From Opitutaceae bacterium (GTDB lineage Bacteria > Verrucomicrobiota > Verrucomicrobiia > Opitutales > Opitutaceae): a DNA stretch of 42,371 nt. Of the stretch, positions 21,974 through 42,371 are shown piece after piece. The notes beneath the pieces were generated by a model, which saw nothing but the letters and a program-made list of their open reading frames with translations, ran no database searches and was not told the origin of the DNA. Each line of letters starts with the position of its first letter. The stretch's first letter is position 1. The stretch is from the NCBI GenBank assembly GCA_028280955.1, contig JANQKU010000239.1:1-42371 (forward strand), written 5' to 3'. Made by a program: the position numbers and the translations under genes.

Positions 21974-23968
21974 CTAGATCGTAAAGGGCGCTGTCCAAAT
22001 TTCGGCCGTTGAATCTGTCCCGAGGGTTATTTTATCTGAATGGATAGAAACGATGATTTTTCCAGAATCAGTTTCGATAGAGATGATATTGGCCTTTTGA
22101 TTCCATTTAGAAATTTCTACTGAGTCTTTAGTGATAGAAAAGAGAGACAGAATTTGGCAGTGATCAGAATTATCTAGTTTGGCTTCAACGAAGTTATTCG
22201 GTTGTTCCCGCATTTTTGGACCAAATTGGTTTCTGTCCCATGGAGCTTCGTATTTGTGATGGCCTTGCCCAAAACTCAATTCGTTGTTATCTAAGCTGAA
22301 TATTTTTGCAGAAAGAGATGCGGGTTGGTTAGATACCGTAAAGGAACCATCCTTTGCCGGCGCTGCCTTATCCACTGTGTGCCAGCGAATCGAAATGGAT
22401 TCCGATTTCTCCAATTTAGCTTCGTCCAGGACGAGAACGACTCCGGGGAAAAAATGAATAACGGTGCGGGAAGATTGGACAACCCCTTCGTAGGCAGCGG
22501 TTGTATCAATTGACCAGATACTGCCAAGATCGTCGGAGAATTCTGATCGCGTTATTTTCCCCTGAGCATCAGCCGCTTTTTTATTATGAAGGTTTCCTTC
22601 TGTATGATCGGGGTCGAGGATGTAGTTAAACGCCATTTCACGACCACCAAAAACAGGAACGTTATGGCCCCAGGCTTGGGCCTCATAATACTTGAAGCGA
22701 TCTCTGGTGAAGAAACCAACTGGATAACCTCCATATACTCCAAGGTCGACGATAAGTTGTTTCCCATATCCATCGATGCAGACTTGGCCAATGTCGTTAT
22801 GCTCATGGTTATCTTCCCTACGGGCTTTGCTCATGACAACGCTGACAGGGGCACTGTTGTCCCAGGAAGAGCGACTACTAATACAGGCTCCATGATCGTG
22901 GTAGGCCCTCCCTCTGGGGAGAACTCCTTCCGGATCGATTTCTGCGAGATTGGCATCGTAATAAAGGAGATCGAAAGGATCAGGGGTGAGGGTGTGGTAA
23001 CGGTGATAATACCACTGGAGAATACCGTCCTGAGCGGCGTAAGCAATCGTGGCTACCCAATTTCCTTTGAGCGGTGCCCGTGCTTTTGCGTCACCAAAGG
23101 CTACCAGATGACCTGGGGGAACTGTCATGTAGAGATACCAGAGTGCATTTTGAGGAAAGGGATGGTCGGCCAGGCATTGATGCTCTCCATTTGTATAGGA
23201 GGCGTAGGCTGTGAAATAATCGGTGCCCAGAATCATGGCTCCGGCATACCCTACGGCTTCGTTGAATTCACCTTCGGCTCCAAGGGAATCAACATGATGT
23301 TGAAAGCGGGGAATGGCGATATCGATAAGCTCTTGTGATTGGGGGTGCTCTCCCTTGAGGGCCATTGCAGCGATGGCAAGACCACCAACGATACAGGTGC
23401 ACCAATTGTTATCGGTCTTGATCCACCATGGATTGTTTTTTTTCAGATCGGCTAAGTAGGGCTGGATAGCGCGTCGATCAAGGCCCTCAATGATTTCAGC
23501 TCTTTCATCAGAGCTGAGGGAATCTTTAAGCCAGTCGTAGGCAATACCTGCTACTTTTGCCATGGCTCCCGTCCGAAGGTGAACAGTTGGCTGACCATCT
23601 TTATAGGCGGCCAGATCGCACCAGGCAGGAAAGGCATCGGTATCAAACATTAATTTGAGCTGCGATAAGGCATTCTCCCGATATCGTTCATCATCAGTCA
23701 GGTGAAAGGCAAGCGCATGACGCATGATGCGTTTTTCCAGTGCATTCGTGACGGTCCAATCGAGATTTTTCATCTCGATCTGATCAGCCAGTCGGTCGGG
23801 CAGAGCTGTTGCAGTGGTGATTAGATCGCCGTTCAATTCCTCATCAGCTTGCGCTTTTACACCTTCCCAAAGGTTTTTGGCATGACCAGATTGGATGCTT
23901 TCGCGGATTTGCTTGAGTCGCTCTTGAGCGTGATAGGAGTCGGATGAAAGAAATAAGATAGGGTGCAT
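21974..23968 (-). CDS. Heparinase II/III-like polysaccharide/oligosaccharide lyase (copy B)
   Basis: The protein is 664 aa and paralogous to copy A along its full length, with the same start (MHPILFLSSDSYHAQERL), the same WCTCIVGGLA and GEFNEAVGYA blocks and the identical MSKARREDNHEHNDIGQVCIDGYGK block. Differences cluster around the loop after LIVDL (GVYGGYPVGFF versus ERVGTGYPNGYA) and around the FGDAKARAPLKG segment. The copies may therefore differ in fine specificity. It is first in the minus-strand operon and lacks a secretion signal. Its ATG is 114 bp from the divergent kelch-symporter gene, and the gap holds the shared palindrome and two direct ATACGATT repeats (23972-23979, 23990-23997). 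A long plus-strand ORF over it is a shadow. Confidence 0.85.
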   Translation of the reverse strand: MHPILFLSSDSYHAQERLKQIRESIQSGHAKNLWEGVKAQADEELNGDLITTATALPDRLADQIEMKNLDWTVTNALEKRIMRHALAFHLTDDERYRENALSQLKLMFDTDAFPAWCDLAAYKDGQPTVHLRTGAMAKVAGIAYDWLKDSLSSDERAEIIEGLDRRAIQPYLADLKKNNPWWIKTDNNWCTCIVGGLAIAAMALKGEHPQSQELIDIAIPRFQHHVDSLGAEGEFNEAVGYAGAMILGTDYFTAYASYTNGEHQCLADHPFPQNALWYLYMTVPPGHLVAFGDAKARAPLKGNWVATIAYAAQDGILQWYYHRYHTLTPDPFDLLYYDANLAEIDPEGVLPRGRAYHDHGACISSRSSWDNSAPVSVVMSKARREDNHEHNDIGQVCIDGYGKQLIVDLGVYGGYPVGFFTRDRFKYYEAQAWGHNVPVFGGREMAFNYILDPDHTEGNLHNKKAADAQGKITRSEFSDDLGSIWSIDTTAAYEGVVQSSRTVIHFFPGVVLVLDEAKLEKSESISIRWHTVDKAAPAKDGSFTVSNQPASLSAKIFSLDNNELSFGQGHHKYEAPWDRNQFGPKMREQPNNFVEAKLDNSDHCQILSLFSITKDSVEISKWNQKANIISIETDSGKIIVSIHSDKITLGTDSTAEIWTAPFTI

Positions 23969-24082: not shown

Positions 24083-26539
24083 TTGAAAAACCGAAACTGT
24101 TTATCCGCCTTGCTTACTTTTTTGACGCTATTGGTGTTTTTGCCCAGTGTCTCTAACGCAAAGGAGTTAGTCACTTTTGATGAAGTGCCCTATCCGAAAT
24201 TGCCGGTATCTGCTGAAGGAATTCAATTGGGTCAGATTGGGGGCGATGTTCTGGCTTTTGGGGGAGTGGGATCGGATGCTGTTTTCCTTTTAAATGAAGA
24301 AGCCGATGAATGGACGCAATTGGAGGCCAATCTAGCAATTTCTGATGCTTTTGTTATTTCGTCAGAAGATATTCTCTATGTGATTGGAGGACAGGCGGAA
24401 GATGTTTTATCGGATACCGTGTTTTCCCTGAAACTGGAAAATGATCAACTGGTGAAAACCGATATTATCGATCTTCCGGTTTCATTGAATCATCTTACGG
24501 CCACCCTTGATGAGAGTGATCTGTATGTGGCGGGCTATTCTGTTGAGGCAGATTCTCAGAAAATGTTGATTCAGCTGAATCTGGATAATGCAACTAAGGG
24601 GTGGGCAGAGTTGGATGTTTGGCCGGGAGAAGGAGAGGGAGTTCTCGTGGCGGGTTATCAGGATGGCGATCTTTTTATTGGGGAGTCTGATTTTGATGGA
24701 ACGTCGACGGCTCTTTATCGATACAATGATGGCGAAGAGTGGAGCATCCGTGAAACGTTACCAGTTATTTTTAACGATGGTGGCGTTTCATTATCCCTTG
24801 GTCCCTCTCATATTTTATTTGGTGGGATCGATGCGACCAGAGATGATAACAAGAGATTGGTTTTGTGGTCTTATCATACTGTTACGAATACCTGGTCTGA
24901 AATTGGAGGTGTAACAAGTTCCTCTGAAGTTGAGAGAGTGATTCCCTGGTTTATTGAAAGAAAACCTCCTGAAACAGATCTTAGCGGCATTGTCTCAGTG
25001 AGTGGAGAAGGAATGACTGAAAGCTCTCATGTTGTATTGGCTGAGATAAAGGTGAAGAAGGGGTTGTTTACCTGGTTGGACTATACAGCCGTTGTTGTTT
25101 ATCTAGTTGGAATGATTTGGATTGGGGTTTACTTTTCCAAAAGAGAAAAGGGAACAGAAGATTTCTTTGTCGGGGGTCGAAAAATGCCTTGGTGGGCCGT
25201 GGGTTTCAGTTTGTATGCTACCGGAACAAGCGCGATCAGCTTCATGGCGATTCCAGCGCTGTCTTTTGGGACAAACTGGATTGTTTTGAGTGGTAATGTA
25301 TTTGGTCTAATCGCAACGGTTTTTGTCGCTTTGTATTTGGTCCCTTTGATCCGACGTTTGAATATTACGTCGACCTTTGAATATTTGGAGTCCCGATTCC
25401 ACCCCTCTCTCAGGATGGTTGGCAGTTTTCAATGTCTGGTTTTCCAGATTTGTGGACGAATGAGTGTGGTGCTTTTCCTTCCCGCGTTAGCGCTCTCGTC
25501 TGTTACCGGTTTGGATGTGGTGACCAGTATTTTGGTCATGGGGATTATTGCAACGGTTTATACTGTTTTGGGAGGGATTAAGGCAGTTATCTGGACAGAT
25601 GTTGTCCAGGTTATTGTGCTATTAGGAGGCGCTATTTTCTGTCTTTTCGTTATCATCAAGGGAATAGATGGTGGACTTTCCGAATTTTTAAGGATCACTA
25701 CTGTGGATGAGAAAACCCGTATGTTTGACTGGAGTTGGGATTATACGATTCCGACAGCTTGGGTCTTTCTTCTGTTGATGGTTATCAACGTGACGGAGCT
25801 TCCTAGGGATCAGGTAATGGTCCAACGAATTCTTTCGACTAAAAGTGACAAGGCGGCTGGAAGATCGGTGTTCACTCTCGCTTTGATTGTCATACCAGGT
25901 AGTGTCCTTTTCTTTGGTTTGGGAACGGCCTTGTATGTCTTTTATAAATCCCATCCGGAAAGATTGAGTCCGTTGCTTCCGGGTGTTGATTCAACTTTGC
26001 CTTATTTTGTGGCGGCTGAATTACCGATTGGTATTACAGGGTTGATTATTGCGGCTTTGTTTGCGGCTTCCATGTCCTCACTGGACAGTAGTATGAACAG
26101 CGTGGCTACGGTCATTACGGTCGATTTTTACAAACGGTTTAAGAAAAACGTAACTGACAAAGCGAGTTTACATTTAGCAAAATGGATCACGATAGCTGCC
26201 GGTGTTTTTGGGACGGTTTTTGCTTTAATCCTCAGTCGCTATCCTGCTCCATACCTTTTTGAAGTATTCGCTGGTTTTGGTGGATTATTGGGTGGAGGTA
26301 TTGGAGGAGTCTTTTCGTTAGGTCTTTTCACCAGACGGGCTAATTGGCAGGGAGCTATGATAGGGATGCTAGCAAGTGTTATTATCACTTGGGCTGCCCA
26401 AGAGTTCACAGATATGACGCCTTTCCTTTTTGTTGGAGTCGCAATCGTTAGTTGTACCGTGATTGGATATCTAGCCAGTTTGTGCTTCCCCGCACCTTCT
26501 CAATCTCTGAAAGGGCTGACGCTTTTTGCAGAGAAGTGA
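24083..26539 (+). CDS. Kelch-like periplasmic domain fused to sodium:solute symporter (SSS), copy 1
   Basis: The protein is 818 aa from TTG 24083. The first about 26 residues are a signal peptide (Lys/Arg start, LLTFLTLLVF core, cleavage after SNA). Residues about 30-320 form a diverged kelch-type beta-propeller with repeated G-G and W motifs (LAFGGVGS, LYVIGGQ, DEWTQLE, ILFGGID), reminiscent of NanM-type sialic acid mutarotases. From about residue 333 on there is a complete SSS transporter: YLVGMIWIGVYFSKREKGTEDFFVGGRKMPWWAVGFSLYATGTSAISF, LVPLIRRL, YTVLGGIKAVIWTDVVQ, and the Na+-site helix AASMSSLDSSMNSVATVITVDFYKRF. It probably imports an acidic or amino sugar with Na+. It is divergent from the lyase operon. 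TTG is chosen because it gives the signal peptide, and no ATG fits. Confidence 0.88.
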   Translation: MKNRNCLSALLTFLTLLVFLPSVSNAKELVTFDEVPYPKLPVSAEGIQLGQIGGDVLAFGGVGSDAVFLLNEEADEWTQLEANLAISDAFVISSEDILYVIGGQAEDVLSDTVFSLKLENDQLVKTDIIDLPVSLNHLTATLDESDLYVAGYSVEADSQKMLIQLNLDNATKGWAELDVWPGEGEGVLVAGYQDGDLFIGESDFDGTSTALYRYNDGEEWSIRETLPVIFNDGGVSLSLGPSHILFGGIDATRDDNKRLVLWSYHTVTNTWSEIGGVTSSSEVERVIPWFIERKPPETDLSGIVSVSGEGMTESSHVVLAEIKVKKGLFTWLDYTAVVVYLVGMIWIGVYFSKREKGTEDFFVGGRKMPWWAVGFSLYATGTSAISFMAIPALSFGTNWIVLSGNVFGLIATVFVALYLVPLIRRLNITSTFEYLESRFHPSLRMVGSFQCLVFQICGRMSVVLFLPALALSSVTGLDVVTSILVMGIIATVYTVLGGIKAVIWTDVVQVIVLLGGAIFCLFVIIKGIDGGLSEFLRITTVDEKTRMFDWSWDYTIPTAWVFLLLMVINVTELPRDQVMVQRILSTKSDKAAGRSVFTLALIVIPGSVLFFGLGTALYVFYKSHPERLSPLLPGVDSTLPYFVAAELPIGITGLIIAALFAASMSSLDSSMNSVATVITVDFYKRFKKNVTDKASLHLAKWITIAAGVFGTVFALILSRYPAPYLFEVFAGFGGLLGGGIGGVFSLGLFTRRANWQGAMIGMLASVIITWAAQEFTDMTPFLFVGVAIVSCTVIGYLASLCFPAPSQSLKGLTLFAEK

Positions 26540-27476: not shown

Positions 27477-27501
27477 CTTTTGATCGATAAAGTGGGAATT
27501 T

Positions 27502-27526
27502 CTAAGAGCAATGTGATTGCTCTTAG
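27502..27526. promoter_or_regulatory. Palindromic element, copy 2, upstream of the second kelch-symporter
   Basis: Left arm CTAAGAGCAAT (27502-27512), spacer GTG and a right arm (27516-27526) that is the exact reverse complement make an 11-bp perfect inverted repeat. It is a more complete version of the element at 23999-24027 and lies 65-89 bp upstream of the ATG at 27591. No T-run follows, so a terminator for the preceding SDR is less likely than an operator or a 5' leader hairpin. Confidence 0.65.
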
Positions 27527-27590
27527 CGAAAAGACTTACTTAGGTTGCCATCCCAATTACCTTTCTCCTCCAATTTTATATCCCCTTAAA

Positions 27591-30065
27591 ATGCGAAAAC
27601 GCTCACTCTCGTCGCTTGTAATTTTATTTCTATGCCTGGGATTCCCCGGGCTTTCATATACGAAAGACATCACTTCTATCGGTGAAGTTAACTATCCAGA
27701 TCTACCCATTTCTGTTGAAGGGCTTAATCTTGGGCAAGTAGGTGGAGATGCCCTAGCCTTCGGAGGTTTTGAGACGGTCAATGGGGTCAAATGGTGGAAT
27801 GAGAAAGCTTATCTTCTCGAGGATGGAGGAGAAGAATGGAAAAAGGTGGATTTTGATCTCGTTCTGGCAGATGCCTCGTTTGCGTCTGATGAAAAGGCGC
27901 TTTATATCGTAGGGGGTGTCACTCCTGAAGGTGCTTCTCAAGCAGTCTTTTCGGTAACCCTGGATGGAGAGGAACTTAAAAAGAGCGAACTAACTGAACT
28001 TCCTGTTACGCTAAATAATCTTTCGGCGACTGTTAATGGCACTACCCTGTACGTAGCTGGTTATACTTTTGATACGACTGAGAAGAGATTGATGAGCCTT
28101 AATCTCGAAGGTGTGACTGATGGATGGGTCGATATGGAGGTCTGGCCTGGAGAGGATCAAGGTGTTACATTGATTGCTTATCAGCAGGGCTCTTTATTTC
28201 TGGCAGAGACGATTGTTTCGGAAGGCGGTGAAGCCGGGACTTTTTTACATAGCTTAAAAGATGGGGAGAGTGAATGGAATCTATGTAAGGAATCCCCATC
28301 TGTTCTAGGAGAAGGGTCTGCTCTATCAATCAGACAGTCGTTTATCATTTTTAGTGGTGTTGGCACGGATCAGAAGTCGGTCGAATTGTTAACTTATAAT
28401 ACCATCACTGATCAATGGGTCTCGGTCGGAAGCATTGAGTTGAATCAAAGTCTTCTTTCAATTGCGTCATGGTACGTTGAGAAAACACCACCAGAAACAG
28501 ATGTCAGTGGAGTCGTATATATTCAGAAAAGCAGTGATGACGCAACTGGAGCGACAGTTGCTATGGCTGAGCTTGTTGTAGCGAAAGGAATGTTCACCTG
28601 GCTGGATTACACCATGGTTGTTGTTTATCTGGTGGGTATGATTTTGATAGGGGTTTATTTTTCCAAGAGAGAAAAAGGAACTGAAGATTTTTTTGTGGGA
28701 GGTCGCAAAATGCCTTGGTGGGCAGTGGGCTTCAGCCTTTATGCGACGGGAACGAGTGCGATTAGTTTCATGGCTTTACCCGCACTGTCGTTTAGAGAAA
28801 ATCTGGTTTATTTAAGTGGTCCTCTGTTTGGGCTCGTTGGTACGGTGATTGTCGCTTTTTATTTAGTTCCATTGATTCGCCGATTGAATGTGACGACGAC
28901 CTACGAATACCTTGAGTCTAGGTTCCATCCTTCAATTCGGCTGCTTGGCAGTGTGATTAGTATTGCTTTCCAGATTGGTGGTCGGATGAGTGTTGTTCTT
29001 TTGCTCCCTGCGTTAGCTTTATCTGCGGTAACTGGATTTGATGTGGCGAGCAGTATCATTGTGATGGGAATCATCGCAACGGTTTACACGGTGTTGGGAG
29101 GAATCAGGGCAGTTATTTGGACGGATGTCGTCCAAGTTGTCGTTTTACTTGGTGGGGCGTTTCTCTGTATGGGGATTGTTTTATTTAATATTGATGGCGG
29201 GATAGTGGGGGCATGGAATATTGCGGCGGAGAATAGTAAGCTTGATATGTTTGATTGGCGTTGGGAGTTCGCTGCGCCGACAGCCTGGGTTTTTCTGCTC
29301 CTGGCCATCGTTGATCTTACCTTTATCCCGAGAGATCAGGTGATGATGCAGAGGATCCTCTCAACCAAAAATGATAAAGCGGCAGGTCGGTCGGTCCTCA
29401 TGATGGCATTGATCGTGATTCCGGGTAGTTTGTTATTTTTCGGTTTAGGAACGGCCTTGTTTGTCTTTTATAAGACCCATCCCGCAGAATTGAGCCCTCT
29501 CTTAATTAACAACGATTCGACAGTACCGTTTTTCATCGCATCACAGTTACCAATTGGTATCACAGGATTAATCATTGCTGCCTTATTCGCAGCTTCTATG
29601 TCTACGCTCGATAGCAGTATGAACAGTGTTGCTACATTGGTGACGGTGGATTTTTACAAGCGCTTTAAAAAGGGTGTGACGGATGAGAGCTGCCTGCGTT
29701 TAGCCAAGTGGATTACCATTATGGTTGGTGTTTTTGGAACCGGTGTGGCGCTTTACATGAGTCAATTTGATCTGATGTCTCTCTACGTTACCTTTATGGG
29801 GTTAATGGGATTGATTGGTGGCGGTGTTGGCGGTGTTTACATGCTGGGGATGTTTTCTCGCAGAACGAATTGGCAGGGAGTTTGGGTCGGCGCCATTTTC
29901 AGTTTTATTCTCACGTTGATGATCCGGGAGTTTACCGGTGTGCATGCTTTAATGTTTCTCCCGATTTCGGTCGTTAGCTGTATGGTGGTGGGTTACCTCA
30001 GTAGTTATTTATTCCCATCGCCTCAAGTAGCTCTAAAGGGGCTAACGATTTTTAAAGAAAACTAA
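27591..30065 (+). CDS. Kelch-like periplasmic domain fused to sodium:solute symporter (SSS), copy 2
   Basis: The protein is 824 aa from ATG 27591; a TTG-initiated extension from 27480 exists but would bury the signal peptide (Arg/Lys start, SLVILFLCLG core, cleavage near SYT) and run through the palindrome, so it is rejected. It is paralogous to copy 1 throughout: propeller residues about 28-325, then the SSS domain from about 337 with GVYFSKREKGTEDFFVGGRK, YTVLGGIRAVIWTDVVQ and AASMSTLDSSMNSVATLVTVDFYKRF. The propeller has an extra insertion (ETVNGVKWWNEK) relative to copy 1 and is the less conserved half. This suggests related but distinct ligands. The upstream region is also homologous to that of copy 1. 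A Rho-independent terminator follows at once. Confidence 0.88.
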   Translation: MRKRSLSSLVILFLCLGFPGLSYTKDITSIGEVNYPDLPISVEGLNLGQVGGDALAFGGFETVNGVKWWNEKAYLLEDGGEEWKKVDFDLVLADASFASDEKALYIVGGVTPEGASQAVFSVTLDGEELKKSELTELPVTLNNLSATVNGTTLYVAGYTFDTTEKRLMSLNLEGVTDGWVDMEVWPGEDQGVTLIAYQQGSLFLAETIVSEGGEAGTFLHSLKDGESEWNLCKESPSVLGEGSALSIRQSFIIFSGVGTDQKSVELLTYNTITDQWVSVGSIELNQSLLSIASWYVEKTPPETDVSGVVYIQKSSDDATGATVAMAELVVAKGMFTWLDYTMVVVYLVGMILIGVYFSKREKGTEDFFVGGRKMPWWAVGFSLYATGTSAISFMALPALSFRENLVYLSGPLFGLVGTVIVAFYLVPLIRRLNVTTTYEYLESRFHPSIRLLGSVISIAFQIGGRMSVVLLLPALALSAVTGFDVASSIIVMGIIATVYTVLGGIRAVIWTDVVQVVVLLGGAFLCMGIVLFNIDGGIVGAWNIAAENSKLDMFDWRWEFAAPTAWVFLLLAIVDLTFIPRDQVMMQRILSTKNDKAAGRSVLMMALIVIPGSLLFFGLGTALFVFYKTHPAELSPLLINNDSTVPFFIASQLPIGITGLIIAALFAASMSTLDSSMNSVATLVTVDFYKRFKKGVTDESCLRLAKWITIMVGVFGTGVALYMSQFDLMSLYVTFMGLMGLIGGGVGGVYMLGMFSRRTNWQGVWVGAIFSFILTLMIREFTGVHALMFLPISVVSCMVVGYLSSYLFPSPQVALKGLTIFKEN

Positions 30066-31273: not shown

Positions 31274-32212
31274 ATGTCTGATTCAAAAAAGAGAATAACG
31301 TTAGTTCATACACATGGACGTTCGGTGGAAATCGAGGTGGAGGGTGTTCAATTGTTTCGTTATGTTTACAATCCGGCAGAGATTCCCATGACGGAATCTC
31401 CCAAACCGTATTTTCATCCCGTGAAAACATTGCAGGGAAATGTGATGACAAATCTTCGTGCTAATGATCATCCCTGGCATCATGCCCTGGCCATGACAAT
31501 TACTCTTTTGGATGGTTATAATTTCTGGGGTGGGCCAACCTACGCTGATGGTGAAAATTATCGCTGGGTAGAGAATCACGGTCGTCAAAAACATTTGGAA
31601 TGGAAGGTCCTTTCGGCAAACGAAGATGGGACCTTGCAGATGGAGGAATCTTTGCTTTGGGAAACTCTCAAAGGAGAAGGATTGCTCTCAGAGACTCGTC
31701 ATATTGGTATTCCGGAAATCTCAGAGAAGAAAGGTTACTGGGTTTTGGATTTTGCAACGAAATTAGAGAATGTTTCGGGGCGCGATCTAACGATGGGCAA
31801 TTATTATTCCTCAGAGGGATTAAAGGGATCCCATTATTCGGGGCTCCTGTTTCGGTTATCACGTGAGTTTGTCTATGAATGTGGTGATCCTGAAATCAAA
31901 CTGCTGGCAGCAAATGATCTCGATGGAGAAGAAGCGGTGCATGGAGCCTCTTCCCCATGGTTAGCAATGGTGGGACGGCATGATGAAACCTTAGACCGGA
32001 GTACTGTTCTCTTTTTGGATCGCCCGGAAAATGAGACTTATCCGACGCATTGGTTTGTGCGAAGAGCACTTCCCTGTGCGGCCTATACCTTTCAATACGA
32101 TAAGGATCGCATCCTGAAAGACGGTGAAACGCTTAGCTTAAGTTATCGTATGGTGATAGCCAATGGTGCCTGGACTAGAGAAAAAATTGAAGCGTTTGTG
32201 GCGTCTCAGTAA
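31274..32212 (+). CDS. DUF6807 (PmoA-like) family protein
   Basis: The 312-aa protein matches the family annotated as PmoA-like/DUF6807, often mislabelled methane oxygenase. Recognisable blocks are FRYVYNP near the N-terminus, the conserved KPYFHPVKTLQGNVMTN, NDHPWHHALAMTI with clustered histidines, FWGGPTYADG, YYSSEGLKGSHYSGLLFR and HWFVRRALPCAAYTFQYDK. The histidine cluster could bind a metal, but no activity is established in my knowledge. It has no signal peptide. It follows the Gfo/Idh gene on the same strand and overlaps the convergent epimerase gene by 7 bp at the stop codons. A role in sugar metabolism is inferred from the neighbours; it is not a membrane methane monooxygenase subunit. 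Confidence 0.82.
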   Translation: MSDSKKRITLVHTHGRSVEIEVEGVQLFRYVYNPAEIPMTESPKPYFHPVKTLQGNVMTNLRANDHPWHHALAMTITLLDGYNFWGGPTYADGENYRWVENHGRQKHLEWKVLSANEDGTLQMEESLLWETLKGEGLLSETRHIGIPEISEKKGYWVLDFATKLENVSGRDLTMGNYYSSEGLKGSHYSGLLFRLSREFVYECGDPEIKLLAANDLDGEEAVHGASSPWLAMVGRHDETLDRSTVLFLDRPENETYPTHWFVRRALPCAAYTFQYDKDRILKDGETLSLSYRMVIANGAWTREKIEAFVASQ

Positions 32213-33048
32213 AGTTCAGCTTCGTCTTCTGGCTCCCAGTTGATTTCGTCTTTGATGCGGCTTATGTCAATGAGTCGATCTTTTGGTTTATCCGGAGTTT
32301 TCCAGGGAATGTGAGAATAGTAACGTTCGATCACTTCCTCAATCGACAGATATGCTCGTTGACGTTTAGCGGCGGGGAGATAGATACGAAATCCAGGGAG
32401 AGTGCTCTTTAAGATACATTCAAGGAGATTGGCGGTATCGACAAACGAAAGGGCGGCAAAGGCCTGACGGATCCAGGTGAGCCCAATGTTTGAGGGAGGG
32501 TGTTCTCTCTTCATATGTTTGGGAGGGATCATCGTTGGAAGACGCAGGGCGGTTCCTTCAATGGGATAAAGGGATGAAAAATAGGAGAGCATATCTTCAC
32601 CTGTTTTTTTACTCAGAGCGTAACTGTTGCTCGGCTTAGCCGGCGTATGGCTATCCAGAGGAAATGAGGGAAAGTCGGGCTCTTCTGTTTGGAGAACGGT
32701 GCCAGGTCCTTCGCTGGCAAGTACTTGAATGGAACTGGCAAAGATAACTTTTCGGACACCCGCATGGGCGGCTGCCTGAAAGACATTCATATTCATGGCG
32801 CAGTTTTCATTAAAAACTGTCTGCGGATGTCCGGTATAGGAATGATTACCAAAATGAATAACGGCATCAAAATTCTGGATCGTCTTTTCCGTAGCTTCCC
32901 AGTCCAGAAGATTTAACTCTAGACTAGAAACAGTCTTATCGTCTGCCTGGCGGCGGTCGCTGCCGACAACATCAAATCCTTTGTCGGACAGTGCTTTGCA
33001 GAGATAACTTCCAACATTTCCGGTGGCGCCTGTGATGAAGATCTTCAT
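32206..33048 (-). CDS. NAD-dependent epimerase/dehydratase family protein (uronate dehydrogenase-like)
   Basis: The 280-aa extended-SDR protein has GATGNVGSYLCKAL (G-x-x-G-x-x-G), VVGSDRR after beta-2, HFGNHSY, VIFASSIQVLAS and the catalytic YALSK (SNSYALSKKTGED). The size and the GNHS block fit uronate dehydrogenase-like or NAD-dependent sugar epimerase members that act on free sugars rather than on long nucleotide sugars. It is the only minus-strand gene in this part of the cluster and converges on the DUF6807 gene with a 7-bp overlap of the coding ends. Oxidation of a uronic acid would fit the lyase/enolase operon, but this is inference. Confidence 0.83.
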   Translation of the reverse strand: MKIFITGATGNVGSYLCKALSDKGFDVVGSDRRQADDKTVSSLELNLLDWEATEKTIQNFDAVIHFGNHSYTGHPQTVFNENCAMNMNVFQAAAHAGVRKVIFASSIQVLASEGPGTVLQTEEPDFPSFPLDSHTPAKPSNSYALSKKTGEDMLSYFSSLYPIEGTALRLPTMIPPKHMKREHPPSNIGLTWIRQAFAALSFVDTANLLECILKSTLPGFRIYLPAAKRQRAYLSIEEVIERYYSHIPWKTPDKPKDRLIDISRIKDEINWEPEDEAELY

Positions 33049-34048: not shown

Positions 34049-35569
34049 TTGAAAGCACTTTTTACTCTTACCTTATTATTTCTAATTATAGTTAGTGGAG
34101 CGACCTATCTAACTTTGCCGGGAGTTCGTTCCGATAAACCACAACTGCATTGGATTATTGTAGGGGGACCAGAAAAGGGAGAGCAGGTGGAAATGTTTTA
34201 TCAATGGTTGAAGGAAAATAATTACCCGGAGTTTGACCTGAAGATGGATAAGCCTGGGGCAAAACCACATGAAAAGAATGTGATACAGGGCATTTCGGGT
34301 GTGGCGGGGGATATTCTGGATTGTTATGAAGGGCATGTTCAATTGTACCAGTCGGTCGGTCTTTTGGTGGATTTAACGGATAGAGCAGGAGAGATGGGGT
34401 TAGACCTTGAACAAACCTATACGGCGGTACGGCCTTCAATGAAAGTGGATGGACGTCAGTATGCCTTTCCGCGTAACGTTTCCAGTCGCCTGCTCTGGGT
34501 AAATCTGGAAGCTTTTGAAAAACTTGAACTTCCAGTGCCTCCGGACATTTGGACTTTTGAAGAATTTGAAGAACATGGGAAAGCTTTTGTTGCGGCGGCC
34601 AATATTGCGGGAGAGCACCAAGAATTTTATTTCTCAACGTATATGGGGCTTTACGAGCGGATCATGTTTTTCCGATCCCAAGGAAGAGATATTTACAATG
34701 AAACTCTGACAAAGTTGGAGATGGAACATCCTATCTATGAAGAAATTTACCAAATGTTCTATCGTTGGATTCGCGAGGTGAATATTATCCCGACTGAAAT
34801 GGAAGCAAAAACATTGTTGTCTGCCTCTTCTGGTGGGGTAGGGGCTGGCACATTTCATCTTTTTGCAGAAGGAAAGTATGGCATGATGGGTGGGGCCCGG
34901 TGGAGCTTGATCCAAATGCGGAGAACTGGTCCTACGAAACTGGCGGTCAGTGAATTGCCGCATGGAGGATTTCGCAATACATTGGTCTACTATGGCGCAG
35001 GCGCGGTTTATGCCGGTTCAAAATATACGGACTTAGCGCAATATTTCCTCAAGTTTCTGGCCAGTGAACAATTTAATATGCATATTGTGAAAAGCGGAGA
35101 CGGATTGCCGCCAGTGGCCAAGTATACAGAAACGGAAGAGTTTCTTCGGCCCAAAGAGTTTCCCAATGAATGGGGTTCGCATGAGCGTATTCGAAGAATT
35201 GCGACAGAAATCGCCCTGCCGGTTTCTTCCAGCCCCTATATTTTACTTTCCAGTGTCATGAGGATTGAGAAAAATGCGTTTCATAAATTTTTATCGGGTC
35301 GTAGTTCCGCAGGGGAAGCCATCCGGTTTGCAGAAGACATGATCCGAGCAGAAATGAAACGGGCAAGAGAAGAATCCTCAGAATTGTCCGTGAAATATGA
35401 AAAAGGTTTAAGAGATCAGGCAGAAATTGATCGATTGAGGGAGAAGGGAGAATTAGTTCCGTTACATCTAATTTCGAATCCTTTCTATCGGCGTTATTAT
35501 GTTGAGAGAGGCTGGTCATTGCCAGAAGGTGACGAAGAGACGTTAACGGTTGTTTCTTCTCTAAAATGA
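34049..35569 (+). CDS. Membrane-anchored extracellular solute-binding protein, array copy 1
   Basis: The protein is 506 aa from TTG 34049. Residues about 4-22 are a hydrophobic signal anchor with no lipobox Cys. The rest resembles a family 1 carbohydrate-binding ABC solute-binding protein: an early HWIIVGGPEKGEQVEMFYQWLKE strand-helix, AGDILDCYEGHVQLYQSVGLLVDLTD (matching the SBP 'hinge to DLT' block), FPRNVSSRLLWVN, PPDIWTFEEFEEHGKAF (the 'P-x-T-W-D-E-F' block), GKYGMMGGARW and the ELPHGGFRN/AGSKYTDLAQYFLKFLASE block. A charged C-terminal tail from about 435 holds a possible short coiled coil and ends in NPFYRRYYVERGWSLPEG. No permease or ATPase gene adjoins it. No Shine-Dalgarno precedes the TTG. 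Confidence 0.82.
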   Translation: MKALFTLTLLFLIIVSGATYLTLPGVRSDKPQLHWIIVGGPEKGEQVEMFYQWLKENNYPEFDLKMDKPGAKPHEKNVIQGISGVAGDILDCYEGHVQLYQSVGLLVDLTDRAGEMGLDLEQTYTAVRPSMKVDGRQYAFPRNVSSRLLWVNLEAFEKLELPVPPDIWTFEEFEEHGKAFVAAANIAGEHQEFYFSTYMGLYERIMFFRSQGRDIYNETLTKLEMEHPIYEEIYQMFYRWIREVNIIPTEMEAKTLLSASSGGVGAGTFHLFAEGKYGMMGGARWSLIQMRRTGPTKLAVSELPHGGFRNTLVYYGAGAVYAGSKYTDLAQYFLKFLASEQFNMHIVKSGDGLPPVAKYTETEEFLRPKEFPNEWGSHERIRRIATEIALPVSSSPYILLSSVMRIEKNAFHKFLSGRSSAGEAIRFAEDMIRAEMKRAREESSELSVKYEKGLRDQAEIDRLREKGELVPLHLISNPFYRRYYVERGWSLPEGDEETLTVVSSLK

Positions 35570-35633
35570 TAGGGCTTGAGGTAAATTTATTGTTGGTTAT
35601 GCTGAACGCTTTAACCCTTAACTGTATTAATTA

Positions 35634-37154
35634 TTGAAGGCGCTTTTTACCCTTACGCTACTGTTTCTTGTCCTGGTCAGTGCGGCAACTTATCTGACTT
35701 TGCCGGGAGTAAGGACCGATAGGTTTCAATTGAATTGGGTTGTTGCCGGTGGGCCGGAGAAAGAGAAACAGATTGAGATGTTTTATGAATGGTTGAGGGA
35801 AAATAATTACCCGCAGTTTGATCTGAAAATGGACAAGCCAAGTAGGCGACCAGAGAAAAAGAATGTCATCCAGGGTATTTCGGGTGTCGCAGGGGATATC
35901 CTGGATTGTTATGAGGAGCATGTTCAGCTTTATCAATCCGTCGGTATGTTGGTTGATTTAACGGATATGGTTGAGGAGATGGGGTTGGGGCTGGAGCAAA
36001 CGTATCCATCAGTGAGGCCTTCAATGATGGTGGATGGGCGTCAGTACGGATTTCCCCGTAATGTTTCGAGCCGACTACTGTTGGTGAATGTGGAAGCTTT
36101 TGAGAAACTCGGGCTCCCCACTCCTCCGGATATTTGGAGCTTTGAAGAGTTCGAACAAAACGGGAAAGCCTATATCGCTGCGACGAATATTCCTGGAGAG
36201 AATCAAACTACTTATTTTTCAATTCCTATGGGGCTCTATGATCGAATCGTTTATTTTCGTTCGATGGGAAAAGGTTTTTATAATGAGACTTTAACTAAGG
36301 TCGCCATTGAGGATCCTGCCTATGAGGAAATTTACAGAATGCTTTATCGGTGGACGCATGATTTGCATCTTCTTCCGACCGGAATGGAAGCGAAGGCGCT
36401 ATTATCTGCTTCGAGTGGAGGGTTAGGGGCTGCGATTTTCCACCTTTTTGCCGAGGGGAAATATGGCATGATTTCTCGGTCGAGGTGGGGGTTGCTTGTT
36501 ACGCGGAAAATTGGACCTTCGAAACTGGCTGTTAGTGAATTTCCGCATGGAGGATTTCGCAATGCAGTGGTCTATTATGGGGCAGCAGCTATCTATGCGG
36601 GTTCAAAACATAAGGATTTAGCTGCCTATTTACTAAAATTTATGGCGAGTGAGGAATTCAATATGCATATTGTCCGAAGTGGAGATGGATTGCCGCCTGT
36701 TGCTAAGTATATCGAGACGGAAGAATTTCTTCGGCCCAAAAAATTTCCCAATGAATGGAATGTGCATCAACGTATTCGTGATGTTATCACAGATATCGCA
36801 TTACCGTTACCGTCGAGTCCATTTATCACAATGCTCAGTGTCACTCGATTGGAAAAGAATGCCTTTGATAAATTTATGTCTGATCGCAGTGATGCCAGAG
36901 AGGCGATTCAATTTGCGGCAGAGATGATCGATACAGAGATGAAACGCGCGGCGAAAGAATCTCCTCGTTTGGCCAAAAAATATGAACAGGGCCTGAAAAA
37001 TCAGGCAGAGATTGATCGATTGCGGAAAGAGGGAAAACTCGTTCCGTTGCATCTCATATCGAATCCTTTTTACCGCCGTTACTATGTCGAGAAGGGGTGG
37101 TCTTTACCGGAGGGTAGTGAAGAGGGATTGACGGTTACCGCTTCTATGGAATGA
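35634..37154 (+). CDS. Membrane-anchored extracellular solute-binding protein, array copy 2
   Basis: The protein is 506 aa from TTG 35634 and is the closest relative of copy 1, of the same length. The anchor (about residues 4-22) and all SBP blocks are retained: AGDILDCYEEHVQLYQSVGMLVDLTD, FPRNVSSRLLLVN, PPDIWSFEEFEQNGKAY, GDGLPPVAKY and NPFYRRYYVEKGWSLPEG. Compared with copy 1, substitutions concentrate in residues about 180-300 (for example TTYFSIPMGLYDRIVYFRSMGKGFYNE), probably the ligand-facing lobe, while the anchor and tail change little. That pattern suggests different ligands on a shared scaffold. The gap before it is 64 bp; a TATTAA hexamer (35625-35630) lies directly before the start. 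Confidence 0.82.
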   Translation: MKALFTLTLLFLVLVSAATYLTLPGVRTDRFQLNWVVAGGPEKEKQIEMFYEWLRENNYPQFDLKMDKPSRRPEKKNVIQGISGVAGDILDCYEEHVQLYQSVGMLVDLTDMVEEMGLGLEQTYPSVRPSMMVDGRQYGFPRNVSSRLLLVNVEAFEKLGLPTPPDIWSFEEFEQNGKAYIAATNIPGENQTTYFSIPMGLYDRIVYFRSMGKGFYNETLTKVAIEDPAYEEIYRMLYRWTHDLHLLPTGMEAKALLSASSGGLGAAIFHLFAEGKYGMISRSRWGLLVTRKIGPSKLAVSEFPHGGFRNAVVYYGAAAIYAGSKHKDLAAYLLKFMASEEFNMHIVRSGDGLPPVAKYIETEEFLRPKKFPNEWNVHQRIRDVITDIALPLPSSPFITMLSVTRLEKNAFDKFMSDRSDAREAIQFAAEMIDTEMKRAAKESPRLAKKYEQGLKNQAEIDRLRKEGKLVPLHLISNPFYRRYYVEKGWSLPEGSEEGLTVTASME

Positions 37155-37212
37155 TGCAGAAAATCGACGAATGTGGCCAGGATTCGTGTTAACCTTATAA
37201 ATCCATTAATTT

Positions 37213-38703
37213 GTGAAGACCCTTTTTGCAGTTATTTTACTTATTCTTGGTGTTGCCAGTGTGGTAACCTATCTGAAGTTACCAGGCGCAAAAGAAGATG
37301 ATCCTATTTTAACCTGGGTGGTGACTTCAGATCCAATTCGGCGTTCTCAAGTAGAGATGTTTAAGCAGTGGTTAGAGGAGAACGGATATCCTTCAATTGA
37401 TTTACGGATCGATACGGTTGGCCGGAATAAACAGGCTGAAAAAAATGTTATTCAGGGTGTGGCTGGTGTGGCCGGAGATCTTCTGAATTGTGGATCGGGT
37501 CAGATGGGTCTCTACGAATCTGTTGGTATGTTGGTAGATCTGACAGATGTGGCTGAGGAGATGGGATTTGATGAATCTGTGACCTATCCGTCGGTGAGAC
37601 CTCTATTGAGAGTTAAAGGCCGTCAGTATGGATTTCCGCGCAACGTCGGAGTGCGCATGTCTTTTGTCAATGTGGAAGCTTTCGAAAAAGTTGGTCTGTC
37701 AATTCCTCCAGATATCTGGACATTTGATGAATTTGAAAAAAGAGGGTTGGCGTATATCAAAGCTTCGAATGTTCCGGGGGAACGCCAAACGGTTTATTTT
37801 ACCAGTAGTCTGGCCTCGATCGATCGACTTATGTATGCTCGTTCGATGGGAGCTGATTGGTACAATGAAACCATGACGAGATCTGGCCTCGATGGTCCGG
37901 TTTTTGAAGAGGTATACGACATGGTGTATCGATGGATCAATGAACTCAGTATTGTTCCGACACTTGCGGAAAGACAAGGGCTCTCCTCAGATACTGGATC
38001 TGGTGTCACCCGGGCTGACATGCATTTATTTTCGAAAGGAAATCTAGGGCTGATTACGGCGGGACGCTGGGCGGTGATGCATTTCAGGTTAGTGGGACCT
38101 TCCAAGCTTTCGGTTTGTGAAATTCCATATAAAGAATTTCGTAATACTCTCATGATGTCAGGGGTGGGTGCGGTTTATGCGGGGTCAAAACACAAAGAAT
38201 TAGCGTATTATTTCATGAAGTTTTATGCCAGTGAAAAATATAATAACCAGATTATTGAAAATGGAGATGGACTACCACCTGTTCCACGTTTTACGAAAAC
38301 GGAAGCTTTTTCCCGACCACCAAAGCATCCCAATGAATGGGGGCTTCACGATCGTATTTTAAAAATGGCGACAGAGATTGCCATACCTGTTTCATCCAGT
38401 CCATATGTTCTGGATAGTTTATCCAGGCGGCAGGAGGATAGTTCTTTTGATAAAGCCATTGCGGGTCGTGTTTCGGCTAAAGAGGCTTTAAAATTGGCTG
38501 CTCGAGTTGTCAATGATGATATCGAAAGGAAGGTGAATGAATCGTTAGAATTGCAAGATACCTATGAGCAAGGACTTGAGGATCAGAAAGAAATCGAACG
38601 ACTTCGTAGCGAAGGCAAAATGGTTCCTTTGGACTTGATTACCAACCCTTTTTATCGTCGCTACTACGTCGAAAAGGGTTGGTCGTTGCCGGAAGGATCT
38701 TAG
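37213..38703 (+). CDS. Membrane-anchored extracellular solute-binding protein, array copy 3
   Basis: The protein is 496 aa from GTG 37213 (a TTG at 37211 is in another frame). It is more diverged from copies 1 and 2, and lacks the 10-residue C-terminal extension after GWSLPEG seen there. Blocks kept: AGDLLNCGSGQMGLYESVGMLVDLTD (the usual Asp-Cys-Tyr is Asn-Cys-Gly here), FPRNVGVRMSFVN, PPDIWTFDEFEKRGLAY, GDGLPPVPRFTKTEAF, PNEWGLHDRI and NPFYRRYYVEKGWSLPEGS. The ligand-lobe region TVYFTSSLASIDRLMYARSMGADWYNE differs strongly from its neighbours. A TATAAA (37196-37201) lies 12 bp before the start codon, in -10-like position for a very short leader. Confidence 0.82.
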   Translation: MKTLFAVILLILGVASVVTYLKLPGAKEDDPILTWVVTSDPIRRSQVEMFKQWLEENGYPSIDLRIDTVGRNKQAEKNVIQGVAGVAGDLLNCGSGQMGLYESVGMLVDLTDVAEEMGFDESVTYPSVRPLLRVKGRQYGFPRNVGVRMSFVNVEAFEKVGLSIPPDIWTFDEFEKRGLAYIKASNVPGERQTVYFTSSLASIDRLMYARSMGADWYNETMTRSGLDGPVFEEVYDMVYRWINELSIVPTLAERQGLSSDTGSGVTRADMHLFSKGNLGLITAGRWAVMHFRLVGPSKLSVCEIPYKEFRNTLMMSGVGAVYAGSKHKELAYYFMKFYASEKYNNQIIENGDGLPPVPRFTKTEAFSRPPKHPNEWGLHDRILKMATEIAIPVSSSPYVLDSLSRRQEDSSFDKAIAGRVSAKEALKLAARVVNDDIERKVNESLELQDTYEQGLEDQKEIERLRSEGKMVPLDLITNPFYRRYYVEKGWSLPEGS

Positions 38704-38789
38704 CAGAGAAAATAACCTCTTGAAATTTTTTTAAGATGGAGGTTTAGTAGGTTTCCTACTGTTTCGTAAACCCAGTAATCTTCGGCTGT

Positions 38790-40300
38790 TTGAAGTTTCT
38801 TTTTCGTAGTGTTTTTTTAATGCTAATAGTGACGAGTTTCGTCACCTATCATTTTTTATCTGATGTGGAAGGAGATAGACCGGTGGTTAACTGGATTGCG
38901 AACCCAACGCCAACTCGCAAAGCACAGGTAGCTACCTTTTATCGTTGGTTGGAGAAAAATAATTATCCACCAATTAAAATTAATTTTGATGCCGAGGGGA
39001 GAGCTTCCACACAAGTTAAGATTATTGTTCAAGGAGTATCGGGAGTGGGAAGTGATGTCTTTGATTGCTATCCTGGACAGGTGAGGTTGTATCAATCAAT
39101 TGGAATCCTAAACGATCTGACAGAAGTGGCAGAGAAGATGGGGTTTGAGGGAACGAGGACTTACCCTGGTATACAGGAAGCGATGTATGTAAACGGTCAT
39201 CAGTATATTTTCCCTCGAAATGTGGCATCCCATTTTCTATGGGTCAATATGGAGGCTTTCAATCGTGTGGCAATGCCTATACCCCCTGATGTTTGGACGA
39301 TTGATGAATTTGAAAAAATTGGTAAGGAGTTTATCGAAAAGTCTAATCAGGGAAAAGAACACCAAACCGTTTTTTTTACCAAAGATTTAACGATAGGGGA
39401 TCGGATAGTGATGGTTCGATCCAATGGGGTAGATTTTTTTAATGAAACGTTAACTCAAACAAACCTAAAGTGTTTAGCGTATGCCGAAAGCTATGAACGA
39501 ATCTATCGTTGGATCAATAATCTACATATTATTCCAACGTTGGCGGAATCCAAGGAATTGGTGACGAGCACGGGAAATGCGGTTTCAAATGTACATGTTC
39601 ATTTATTTGCCAAGGGAAATTATGGCTTAATGCCGGGTGGACGTTGGGGCTTGATGTATTTTCGAGAAGTTGGTTTTAAAAATTTATCAGTGAGTGAGCT
39701 TCCTCATGGAGGCTTTCGCAATACTACCTTTGGTTTTGGCGGATTGGCTGTTTATGAGGGGACGAAGGAAAAAGAAGCGGCTCATTATTTTGTAAAGTTT
39801 ATGGCGAGTGAGGACTACAATATGGGAATTGTAGAAAATGCGGATGGATTACCTCCAATTCCCAAATACACGAAGACGGAAGAATTTTTACATCCTCCGG
39901 ATCATCCGAATGAATGGGGATTGCATGGGAGAATTTTACAGATAGCGGAAGAGATAGCGATACTTCGATCGGAGAGCCCGTTTATTTTATTGGATACGAC
40001 AACTCGACTGGAAAAAATGCTTTTGAAAAGTTTGTAGCAGGCCGTGCTTCAGTGAAAGAGGCTTTGCAGGATTGCGCAGCAAGAATCGAAAAAGAGATGG
40101 AGAGAAATATTGGTAAATCTTCAGAACTTACTATTTTGTATGAGAAGAGACTTCGTGATCAAGAAGAGATTGAAAGGCTCCGGAAAGAGGGTAAAATGGT
40201 ACCGTTACGGCTAATTTCGAATCCCTTTTACCGGCGCTACTATGTGGAGATGGGGTGGTCGTTACCTGAGGGAGGTGCTTTTGTTGGCAGTGAAAAATAG
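38790..40300 (+). pseudogene. Array copy 4 of the solute-binding protein, frameshifted near the 3' end
   Basis: The frame from TTG 38790 gives 415 aa and stops at 40037. The missing C-terminus (ending in NPFYRRYYVEMGWSLPEGG and a GSEK tail) is encoded intact in the -1 frame up to 40300. The switch point is an A6 tract at 40012-40017 (GAAAAAATG); paralogues read Glu-Lys-Asn-Ala there, and one extra A would restore a 503-aa protein of normal family length. All other SBP blocks are normal (GVGSDVFDCYPGQVRLYQSIGILNDLTE, FPRNVASHFLWVN, PPDVWTIDEFEKIG). No other stops or gaps occur, so the lesion is recent, a sequencing error, or a site of slippage or recoding. Confidence 0.75.
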
Positions 40301-40345
40301 AGAATAGTGAAGGGTGTTTTGCACAAATTGTTTCAGAACTATGTA

Positions 40346-40375
40346 TTGAACTTTTTAGGGTTTTGATGGTATATT
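40346..40375 (+). promoter_or_regulatory. Promoter-like pair consistent with a leaderless start for array copy 5
   Basis: TTGAAC (40346-40351) and TATATT (40370-40375) are 18 bp apart. A start site seven bases after the -10 box falls on the GTG start codon at 40382. Array copy 6 has homologous upstream sequence in the same register (TTGGCC at 41933, GTG at 41970), though its -10 is weaker. Confidence 0.45.
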
Positions 40376-40381
40376 TATAAA

Positions 40382-41890
40382 GTGAAATTTTTAGCCGTTA
40401 CCCTTTTAGTCTCTCTTATTTTGGCAAGTGTGGCGACGTATTTTAACCTTTCGGATGTTAAAAAAGACCGTCCGGTTCTTCATTGGGTGACGACTGCCGA
40501 TCCTATTCGTGACGGCCAACTGGAACTTTTTCAACAATGGTTGAAAAAATATGATTATCCGGAAATGGAGATTCGAATTGATGTAAGAGCAAAGAAAAAT
40601 GCAGGTGTTAAGAATATCGTGCAAGGTGTTTCCGGAGTGGCCGGAGATCTCATTGATTGTTTCACCGGAGAAGTGATATTGTACCAATCGGTGGGTATGC
40701 TGGAGGATGTTACCGACGTTGCAAAAGAAATGGATTTTGGAGGCTCAAAAACGTATCCATCTTCTAGATTTTCGATGCACATAGATGGTCGCCAATATGG
40801 GTTTCCCCGCAACGCAGGTTCTAACTTTCTTTGGGTAAATGCAGAGGCTTTTGGACGAGTTGGATTGCCTGTTCCTCCTGATGTCTGGACGTTTGAGGAA
40901 TTTGAGCGAAGGGGAAAAGCCTATGTGAAGGCGCATAATGCAGCAGGGGAACGCCAGCGCTTTTACTTTGTGAGATCTCTTGGTGGTGGGGGTAGGGCTA
41001 TTATGGCCCGATCACTGGGAGTCGATATTTTCAACGAGACTATGACAAAATCGAACTATGATACGGCTGTCTTCAGGGAGATTTTTGAAATGAATTATCG
41101 TTGGATTCATGACTTTCGAATTGTTCCTACTCTGATGGAGGCAGAATCTTTGACAGCAAATTCCAGTGCATTGAGTCAAGTAGAGATGTATTTATTTTCT
41201 CAAGGAAATTTTGGTATGATGATCGGAGGTCGATGGGGGCTGATGCATTTCAGAGAAGTTGGCCCCGAGCAACTATCTGTCAGTGAATTCCCTCACGGTG
41301 GTTTTCGAAACAGTTATTCGGGAGGTGGCATTGTGGGCGTTTATGCAAAGTCAAAGCATAAAGAGTTGGCTTTCTATTTCTTGAAATTCTTGGCCAGTGA
41401 AGAATTTAATCATCAAATTATTGAAAATGCAGATGGACTACCTCCGGTATCTGAATACACGAAAACGGAAGCTTATCTGCATCCGGCAGATTATCCGAAT
41501 GAATGGAATCTGCATGGACGTATTGAAAGAATAGAAGAGGAGGTGGGTATTTCTTATGCTTTCAGCCCGTTTGTTATGAGAACTGAAGACGAAAGACTAC
41601 AAAAGAATGCTTTTGATAAATTTATTGCGAACCGTTCCTCAGCTGAAGAAGCCTTATCCATTGCCGCAAAGATGATCAATACAAGTATGGAGCGAAAAGC
41701 CCGTGAATCTGTGGAAGGATGGGCTCAATATCAAAAATTGCTCAGAAATCAGAAAAAGATAGAGCAACTTCGTAGTGAAGGTAAATTGGTTCCTTTATCG
41801 TTGATTACCAATCCTTTTTATCGTCGTTATTATATCGAAAAAGGTTGGTCGTTACCGGAAGGTAGTGCGTCTGTTAAGAGTGAAAAATAG
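40382..41890 (+). CDS. Membrane-anchored extracellular solute-binding protein, array copy 5
   Basis: The protein is 502 aa from GTG 40382. The anchor (about residues 3-21) is followed by the SBP core: HWVTTADPIRDGQLELFQQWLKK, AGDLIDCFTGEVILYQSVGMLEDVTD (Phe in place of Tyr after Cys), FPRNAGSNFLWVNAEAF, PPDVWTFEEFERRGKAY, GGRWGLMHFREVGPEQLSVSEFPHGGFRN and ADGLPPVSEY (Ala for Gly before Asp). It ends with NPFYRRYYIEKGWSLPEG and a VKSEK tail like the GSEK tail of copy 4. Its N-terminal third is nearly the same as copy 6. No Shine-Dalgarno is visible; the promoter-like -10 lies 7 bp before the start codon. Confidence 0.82.
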   Translation: MKFLAVTLLVSLILASVATYFNLSDVKKDRPVLHWVTTADPIRDGQLELFQQWLKKYDYPEMEIRIDVRAKKNAGVKNIVQGVSGVAGDLIDCFTGEVILYQSVGMLEDVTDVAKEMDFGGSKTYPSSRFSMHIDGRQYGFPRNAGSNFLWVNAEAFGRVGLPVPPDVWTFEEFERRGKAYVKAHNAAGERQRFYFVRSLGGGGRAIMARSLGVDIFNETMTKSNYDTAVFREIFEMNYRWIHDFRIVPTLMEAESLTANSSALSQVEMYLFSQGNFGMMIGGRWGLMHFREVGPEQLSVSEFPHGGFRNSYSGGGIVGVYAKSKHKELAFYFLKFLASEEFNHQIIENADGLPPVSEYTKTEAYLHPADYPNEWNLHGRIERIEEEVGISYAFSPFVMRTEDERLQKNAFDKFIANRSSAEEALSIAAKMINTSMERKARESVEGWAQYQKLLRNQKKIEQLRSEGKLVPLSLITNPFYRRYYIEKGWSLPEGSASVKSEK

Positions 41891-41969
41891 AATGGCAAGA
41901 AGGAGACTAAATTGTTGTTTCGCAAATATGTGTTGGCCCTTTCGGGTATTGATCTGGTAGTTTTCTAAT

Positions 41970-42371
41970 GTGAGGTTTTTAGCTCTTACTCTTTTGACTG
42001 TACTGCTTTTTGCCAGCGGAATGACTTATTTTAATCTTTCGGATGTGAAGAAAGATCGTCCGGTACTTCATTGGGTGACAACTGCTGAAACAATTCGTGA
42101 GGGACAGTTGGAGCTTTTTCAACAATGGTTGAAAAAACATGATTATCCGGAGATGGAAATCCGTATGGATGTAAGGGCCCGAAAGAATGCAGGCGTTAAA
42201 AATATTGTGCAGGGTGTTTCCGGGGTGGCTGGAGATATTCTGGATTGTTTCTCTGGGGAAGTCATGCAGTACCAATCGGTGGGTATGTTAGAGGATCTTA
42301 CGGATGTGGCGAAGGAAATGGGTTTCGATGGATCCAGAACCTACCCATCGGCCAGGATTTCGATGGAAGTG
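41970..42371 (+). CDS. Membrane-anchored extracellular solute-binding protein, array copy 6, 3'-truncated by window end
   Basis: The frame from GTG 41970 is open to the last base (134 codons). It begins with the same anchor type as the other copies and continues HWVTTAETIREGQLELFQQWLKK, then the AGDILDCFSGEVMQYQSVGMLEDLTDVAKEM block, so it is plainly the next array member. An ATG at 41968 is followed at once by a stop and cannot be used. The upstream 79 bp resembles the gap before copy 5, showing that duplication units included the intergenic region. Confidence 0.82.
   Translation, partial: MRFLALTLLTVLLFASGMTYFNLSDVKKDRPVLHWVTTAETIREGQLELFQQWLKKHDYPEMEIRMDVRARKNAGVKNIVQGVSGVAGDILDCFSGEVMQYQSVGMLEDLTDVAKEMGFDGSRTYPSARISMEV

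Follow-up and report, generated by a model that had tools for sequence, protein, structure and literature searches.

The genome studied here carries, at a single site and in a single direction, an array of about 18 genes for solute-binding proteins (SBPs) of ABC transporters, with no permease gene beside it. Its copies form one lineage-confined clade of paralogues, and the SBPs far outnumber the permeases of their type: this is a lineage-specific expansion of orphan SBPs. We put at about 60% the probability that the receptors bind different oligosaccharides and share a permease, which would be encoded elsewhere in the genome.

The window, which is the whole stretch of 42,371 nucleotides that was analysed, is the entire contig C189 of an Opitutaceae metagenome-assembled genome (MAG), called G000, and this contig ends inside the array. 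Six SBP paralogues, all on the + strand, run from position 34049 to the contig end, next to two flanking genes on the left:

31274..32212, + strand: DUF6807 gene, left flank; a homologue lies further left of the single SBP gene of the related genome G033
32206..33048, - strand: NAD-dependent epimerase gene, left flank; a homologue lies directly left of the single G033 SBP gene
34049..35569, + strand: SBP copy A01, 506 aa, TTG start, opens the array; Pfam match
35634..37154, + strand: SBP copy A02, 506 aa, 72% identity to A01; Pfam match
37213..38703, + strand: SBP copy A03, 496 aa, orthologue at G001:C347 with 88% identity; Pfam match
38790..40300, + strand: SBP copy A04, split by a frameshift in an A-run around aa 410 into the ORFs 38790-40037 and 39914-40300; Pfam match
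40382..41890, + strand: SBP copy A05, 502 aa; Pfam match
41970..42371, + strand: SBP copy A06, truncated by the contig end to its N-terminal 134 aa; contig C250 probably begins with the remainder

The Pfam curated cut-offs for SBP_bac_8/SBP_bac_1 were passed by five of the six window copies. The 134-aa fragment A06 gave no Pfam match and was assigned by its 52% identity to A01. Coordinates, Pfam matches and identity thus bear out the six tandem, same-strand paralogues described in the earlier note, corrected in that A04 is frameshifted and the array is larger (about 18 genes). Two relatives of A04 in a second genome, G001, are intact; the frameshift may reflect decay, error or variation. Pairwise identity among array copies is 43-74%. 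Spacers between the SBP genes of the window measure 58-86 bp, and scans for promoters and terminators gave no excess over shuffled sequences, terminator-like sites in these spacers included.

A protein search of G000 gave 25 matches, and the array could be followed downstream on other contigs, as had been proposed earlier. The array runs over C189, C250 and C47, and ends at C47:8003 with no permease adjoining. Contig C250 (8.1 kb) is made up of SBP genes of this family, among which one unrelated gene is inserted, and C47 adds nine further SBP genes. The inserted gene is the following:

L029:5413-6840, - strand: unrelated 475-aa gene inside the array (C250), with an RskA_C match and a signal-like N-terminus

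Where the end of C189 overlaps the start of reversed C250, 60 of 63 bases agree, with 45 of 63 for the next-best paralogue; reversed C250 joins reversed C47 through four bases that keep a single SBP gene in frame. No exact overlap was found between the array contigs, and the joins rest on this near-match, the four-base in-frame join and synteny. The count of 18 genes is that obtained after joining, copies 6 and 10 each being split by contig ends. Over the joined array the spacers are 21-157 bp long, save where the 475-aa gene is inserted. Outside the array, two tandem SBP copies are located on C42, one on C123 (the operon copy, see below) and one fragment on C160. The total for G000 is therefore 22 SBP genes or fragments, versus two MalF/MalG sets of this type.

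An artefact of metagenome assembly, by collapse of strains or wrong grouping of contigs, could be suspected, since G000 is a short-read MAG (3.68 Mb in 286 contigs, 86% complete) and the joins are made through three mismatches in one case and four bases in the other. However, C47 alone holds at least nine copies and C189 six, and the copies differ far more than strain variants would. Moreover, G001 (isolate NORP342), an independent MAG of the same genus, agrees with G000 in the flank and in local gene order. Finally, the genome G033 connects both outer flanks. We consider an artefact very improbable.

In G033 (QNAI01000021, L095), a single SBP gene has the epimerase on its left, and a propeller gene, a homologue of a 463-aa protein and an aminotransferase on its right. 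These genes are homologues of those at the left outer end of C189 and the right outer end of C47, where the gene next to the array is a convergent propeller gene, and their order and orientation are identical. Because the single SBP gene sits between the genes that flank both array ends, the array must have grown by duplication at one site, and the joins between C189, C250 and C47 are supported independently of the overlaps. The right flank of the array also contains a tandem pair of paralogues (L026:1925-4748, - strand; 460 and 463 aa) that belong to no Pfam family and of which G033 has one.

Phylogeny placed the array copies of G000 and G001 in one clade (99% SH-aLRT; 100/99 in a second tree), with the G033 SBP as its sister at moderate support. 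Orthologous SBP pairs of G000 and G001 are found in conserved order, which means that a large part of the expansion is older than the separation of these two species. The relatives of the source genome, G001 included, are Opitutaceae; G001 is 75% and G033 83% complete.

Elsewhere, the family has a different organization. A single-sequence scan of genome contigs returned nothing, and an alignment-based scan gave 78 loci. Other genomes (from Verrucomicrobiota, Lentisphaerota, Planctomycetota and others) contributed 73 loci, and for 71 of them the arrangement could be read: 66 have the SBP gene beside a MalF-like permease gene (~490 aa), usually followed by MalG, and five are orphans. A few of these loci have two SBPs. 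The survey of copy number in related genomes that the earlier note had suggested agrees: among 252 genomes of the Opitutaceae, 30 besides G000 and G001 have a match, each with one or two copies, versus 22 in G000, and a class-wide genome sample likewise gave one or two copies. In the survey of the 252 genomes at most six matches were scored for each, a ceiling that affects G000 and G001 alone. Single orphan SBPs of the family were seen at L111, L156, L159 and L164; for L111, L156 and L164, a full operon is present on another contig of the same isolate (L107, L149 and L153). GntR-type regulator genes with a Peripla_BP_3 domain are found at L030:5327-6385, L031:858-1934 and window positions 8270-9277 (Pfam-confirmed for L030 and the window gene), those of L030 and L031 being divergent from an SBP gene of the family.

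The nature of the proteins was examined on an AlphaFold2 model of A01 (pLDDT 91.8), in which a two-lobed core is preceded by a helix (residues 2-21) and followed by a helical extension at the C-terminus. Three parts of the protein are referred to below:

34052..34114, + strand: hydrophobic helix at the N-terminus of A01 (residues 2-21), predicted to serve as an uncleaved membrane anchor, as in all other copies
34616..34660, + strand: cleft loop of A01 that varies among copies (residues ~190-204); it corresponds to ligand-contact residues 172-180 of YesO
35378..35509, + strand: helical extension at the C-terminus of A01 (~residues 444-487), carrying the conserved motif NPFYRRYYVEKGW; solved SBPs do not reach into it

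Fold matches to oligosaccharide SBPs reached Z scores of 30-35, which designates the two-lobed SBP fold. By family and fold, the copies are CUT1-type SBPs (class II, cluster D; MalE/YesO/AbnE-like), predicted to bind oligosaccharides. Membership of the TTT/Bug (TctC-type) receptors was rejected, as the Pfam scan gave SBP_bac_1/8 and otherwise weak matches only.

Cysteine is absent from residues 1-40 of every full-length copy (17 array-type copies and the C123 copy). The absence of a lipobox, already remarked in the earlier note, is thus confirmed, and these proteins are not lipoprotein SBPs. The hydropathy of the N-terminal 19 residues (1.75-2.76 among copies) and the model fit an anchor, yet some copies have possible S-x-A/A-x-A sites. 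The uncleaved anchor that had been proposed therefore stands as a prediction for all copies, but it is not specific to the array: the N-terminal hydrophobic helix is present in 69 of 72 family homologues, and a C-terminal NPFxxxY motif in 50 of 72.

Divergence between copies was then compared with the position of the putative ligand contacts, 18 of the 21 published YesO contacts (PMC7596534) being placed on A01 by the family profile. For Lmo0181, looked at as the source of a second map, a search turned up no list of contacts. Among 17 array-type copies, mean entropy was 1.97 at contact positions versus 1.37 in the core (P = 0.002 against random sites, 0.007 against slid sites). Between close paralogue pairs, 46% of contacts differed versus 30% of the remaining core (Fisher p = 0.0004, an optimistic value, as are the other pair p-values, because pairs share sequences). 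For the G000/G001 orthologues the proportions were 22% of contacts and 20% of the core, and the contrast between paralogues and orthologues had a p of 0.08. In 19 operon homologues of similar divergence there was no excess (1.04 at contacts, 1.13 in the core). When loop 190-203, within which the alignment is uncertain, was removed, the contact excess was not significant (P = 0.20). These comparisons support a divergence of the copies at the presumed ligand-contact positions, mainly in one cleft loop. The mapping of variable residues onto a predicted structure, as formerly proposed, thus places cleft contacts above the core, but the excess depends on that loop; similarly, the reported divergence of close copies in their middle third holds for some close pairs and not for all, the signal coming mainly from the loop.

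Pairwise dN was far below dS, which is saturated between most copies; for G000/G001 orthologues dN/dS was ~0.07-0.1, with dS near or above 1. Given these low ratios, the copies are under purifying selection. The copies might nevertheless bind much the same ligand and serve dosage or differential expression, the loop having diverged by relaxed drift. The restriction of the cleft excess to one loop would fit, and GTG/TTG starts, which occur among the array copies, together with the short spacers, permit joint expression. However, the identity of 43-74% and an age that predates the split of G000 and G001 argue against this explanation, as do the low dN/dS and the operon homologues of like divergence, which do not vary at contact positions. 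It is, in our opinion, the least likely of the biological explanations.

Inspection of the flanks on C189 and C47 revealed no permease at either end of the array. The set of receptors on a common scaffold with no adjoining permease, as first described, was thus borne out, the far array end included. Two permease sets of the relevant type exist elsewhere in G000. The first is a complete SBP operon over C123 and C285, with SBP-MalF on C123 and MalG on C285, so that this SBP copy, in contrast to the array, is encoded with its own permease. MalG of C285 was assigned to this operon because both contigs end there and because MalF and MalG are together on G001:C254. The second is a stand-alone MalF-MalG pair on C107, with an epimerase gene upstream and no SBP gene; kinship of this epimerase with that of the array flank was considered and rejected, the two being unrelated. 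The C107-type pair was found neither in G001 (75% complete) nor in G033 (83% complete), and in the MalF phylogeny the position of C107 had no resolution and did not tie it to the array SBPs. The PotA/UgpC-like ATPase on C17 was the only TOBE_2 protein found in G000, where an OB_MalK search gave nothing; assigned by family only, it may be the partner of these permeases. The array SBPs would use the C107 or the C123 permease, the C107 pair being a candidate as it lacks an SBP of its own.

Alternatively, the orphan receptors could be membrane-tethered sensors or scavengers of glycan fragments, acting via a partner (a kinase, for example) or by concentrating the ligand locally. The lack of a permease in both flanks is compatible with such a role, which is among those proposed for orphan TTT receptors (PMC5994714), and G033 keeps one orphan SBP with no close MalF detected in its 83% complete genome. 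But that genome is incomplete, no histidine kinase or chemoreceptor is present among the annotated flank genes, the SBP family is otherwise tied to MalF-MalG, and G000 keeps a MalF-MalG pair with no SBP of its own. We regard this role as unlikely, if somewhat less so than a common ligand for all copies.

The reading that we favour, different oligosaccharides delivered to a shared permease, is as follows. An ancestral CUT1-type oligosaccharide-binding protein would already have lost its link to a permease when it was duplicated in tandem at one site, in one Opitutaceae genus, into about 18 receptors with a predicted membrane tether, two more copies having moved to a second place. Purifying selection keeps the copies, and as their cleft loop has diverged, their ligands are most likely different oligosaccharides, or else variants of a complex glycan. 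With the N-terminal helix as tether, all receptors would share a single MalF-MalG permease as their docking partner; the stand-alone pair of C107 is the likeliest choice, or else the permease of the C123/C285 operon, energized by a separately encoded ATPase such as that of C17. Its strongest form, an ABC importer in which some 20 interchangeable tethered receptors each bring another glycan fragment to one hub permease encoded elsewhere, is proposed more tentatively, and we would give it slightly less than even chances. Such receptors would broaden the means by which a marine Opitutaceae bacterium could import diverse fragments of glycans.

Carbohydrate ligands are in line with the gene context, as the remaining window looks like a uronate/polysaccharide island, with a DUF4962 protein, an enolase-superfamily enzyme, a KduD-like dehydrogenase and two kelch-sodium symporter fusions. 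In the latter two genes (24083-26539 and 27480-30065), an N-terminal kelch/mutarotase-like part is fused to a sodium:solute symporter (SSF). Two adjoining genes at 19969-21966 and 21974-23968 (- strand) encode proteins of 665 and 664 aa; the second has a DUF4962 match and the first has none in Pfam.

In searches of the non-subscription literature, no close case of an ABC-type orphan SBP array or of a tethered SBP came to light. Related by family are the SBP-MalF-MalG operons (Opitutaceae, Lentisphaerota, Planctomycetota; L096-L168, and C123 of G000), which mostly share the N-terminal helix and the C-terminal motif, but combine a permease with one or two SBPs and contain no array. YesO of Bacillus subtilis, a rhamnogalacturonan oligosaccharide SBP (PDB 5z6b; PMC7596534), is also a class II, cluster D oligosaccharide SBP, and the family profile matches its residues 41-435 (E 2e-20). 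In contrast to the array copies, it is the single SBP of one transporter, and no such N-terminal transmembrane anchor or C-terminal extension is described for it (PMC7596534). The closest solved fold is that of Lmo0181, a cycloalternan SBP (PDB 5f7v; Z 35.4, 382 residues), and another close one that of AbnE, an arabino-oligosaccharide SBP (PDB 6rjy; Z 31.7, 398 residues); with 18-19% identity, the solved parts of both match model residues 29-448, which leaves the anchor and the C-terminal extension unmatched.

As a phenomenon, the array comes closest to the orphan SBP expansions already known among TTT (TctC/Bug) receptors. They occur in Bordetella, Cupriavidus and Rhodoplanes sp. Z2-YC6860 (PMC5994714). 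The latter has 434 TTT SBP genes, spread genome-wide with a longest array of nine, and Bordetella bronchiseptica has 181 TTT receptors; the membrane sets of Bordetella number no more than four (PMC5994714). The likeness lies in a lineage-specific excess of SBPs over membrane components, mostly orphans and partly in tandem arrays, and a shared permease or a sensing role has been proposed there too (PMC5994714). The Opitutaceae case differs by belonging to the ABC CUT1 type, with about 18 genes at one site, one traceable ancestor and predicted tethers. It is compact and traceable, from one ancestral gene at one site with known flanks to some 18 descendants and a candidate lone permease, and its conserved scaffold with a variable cleft loop makes the question of many receptors for one importer directly testable.
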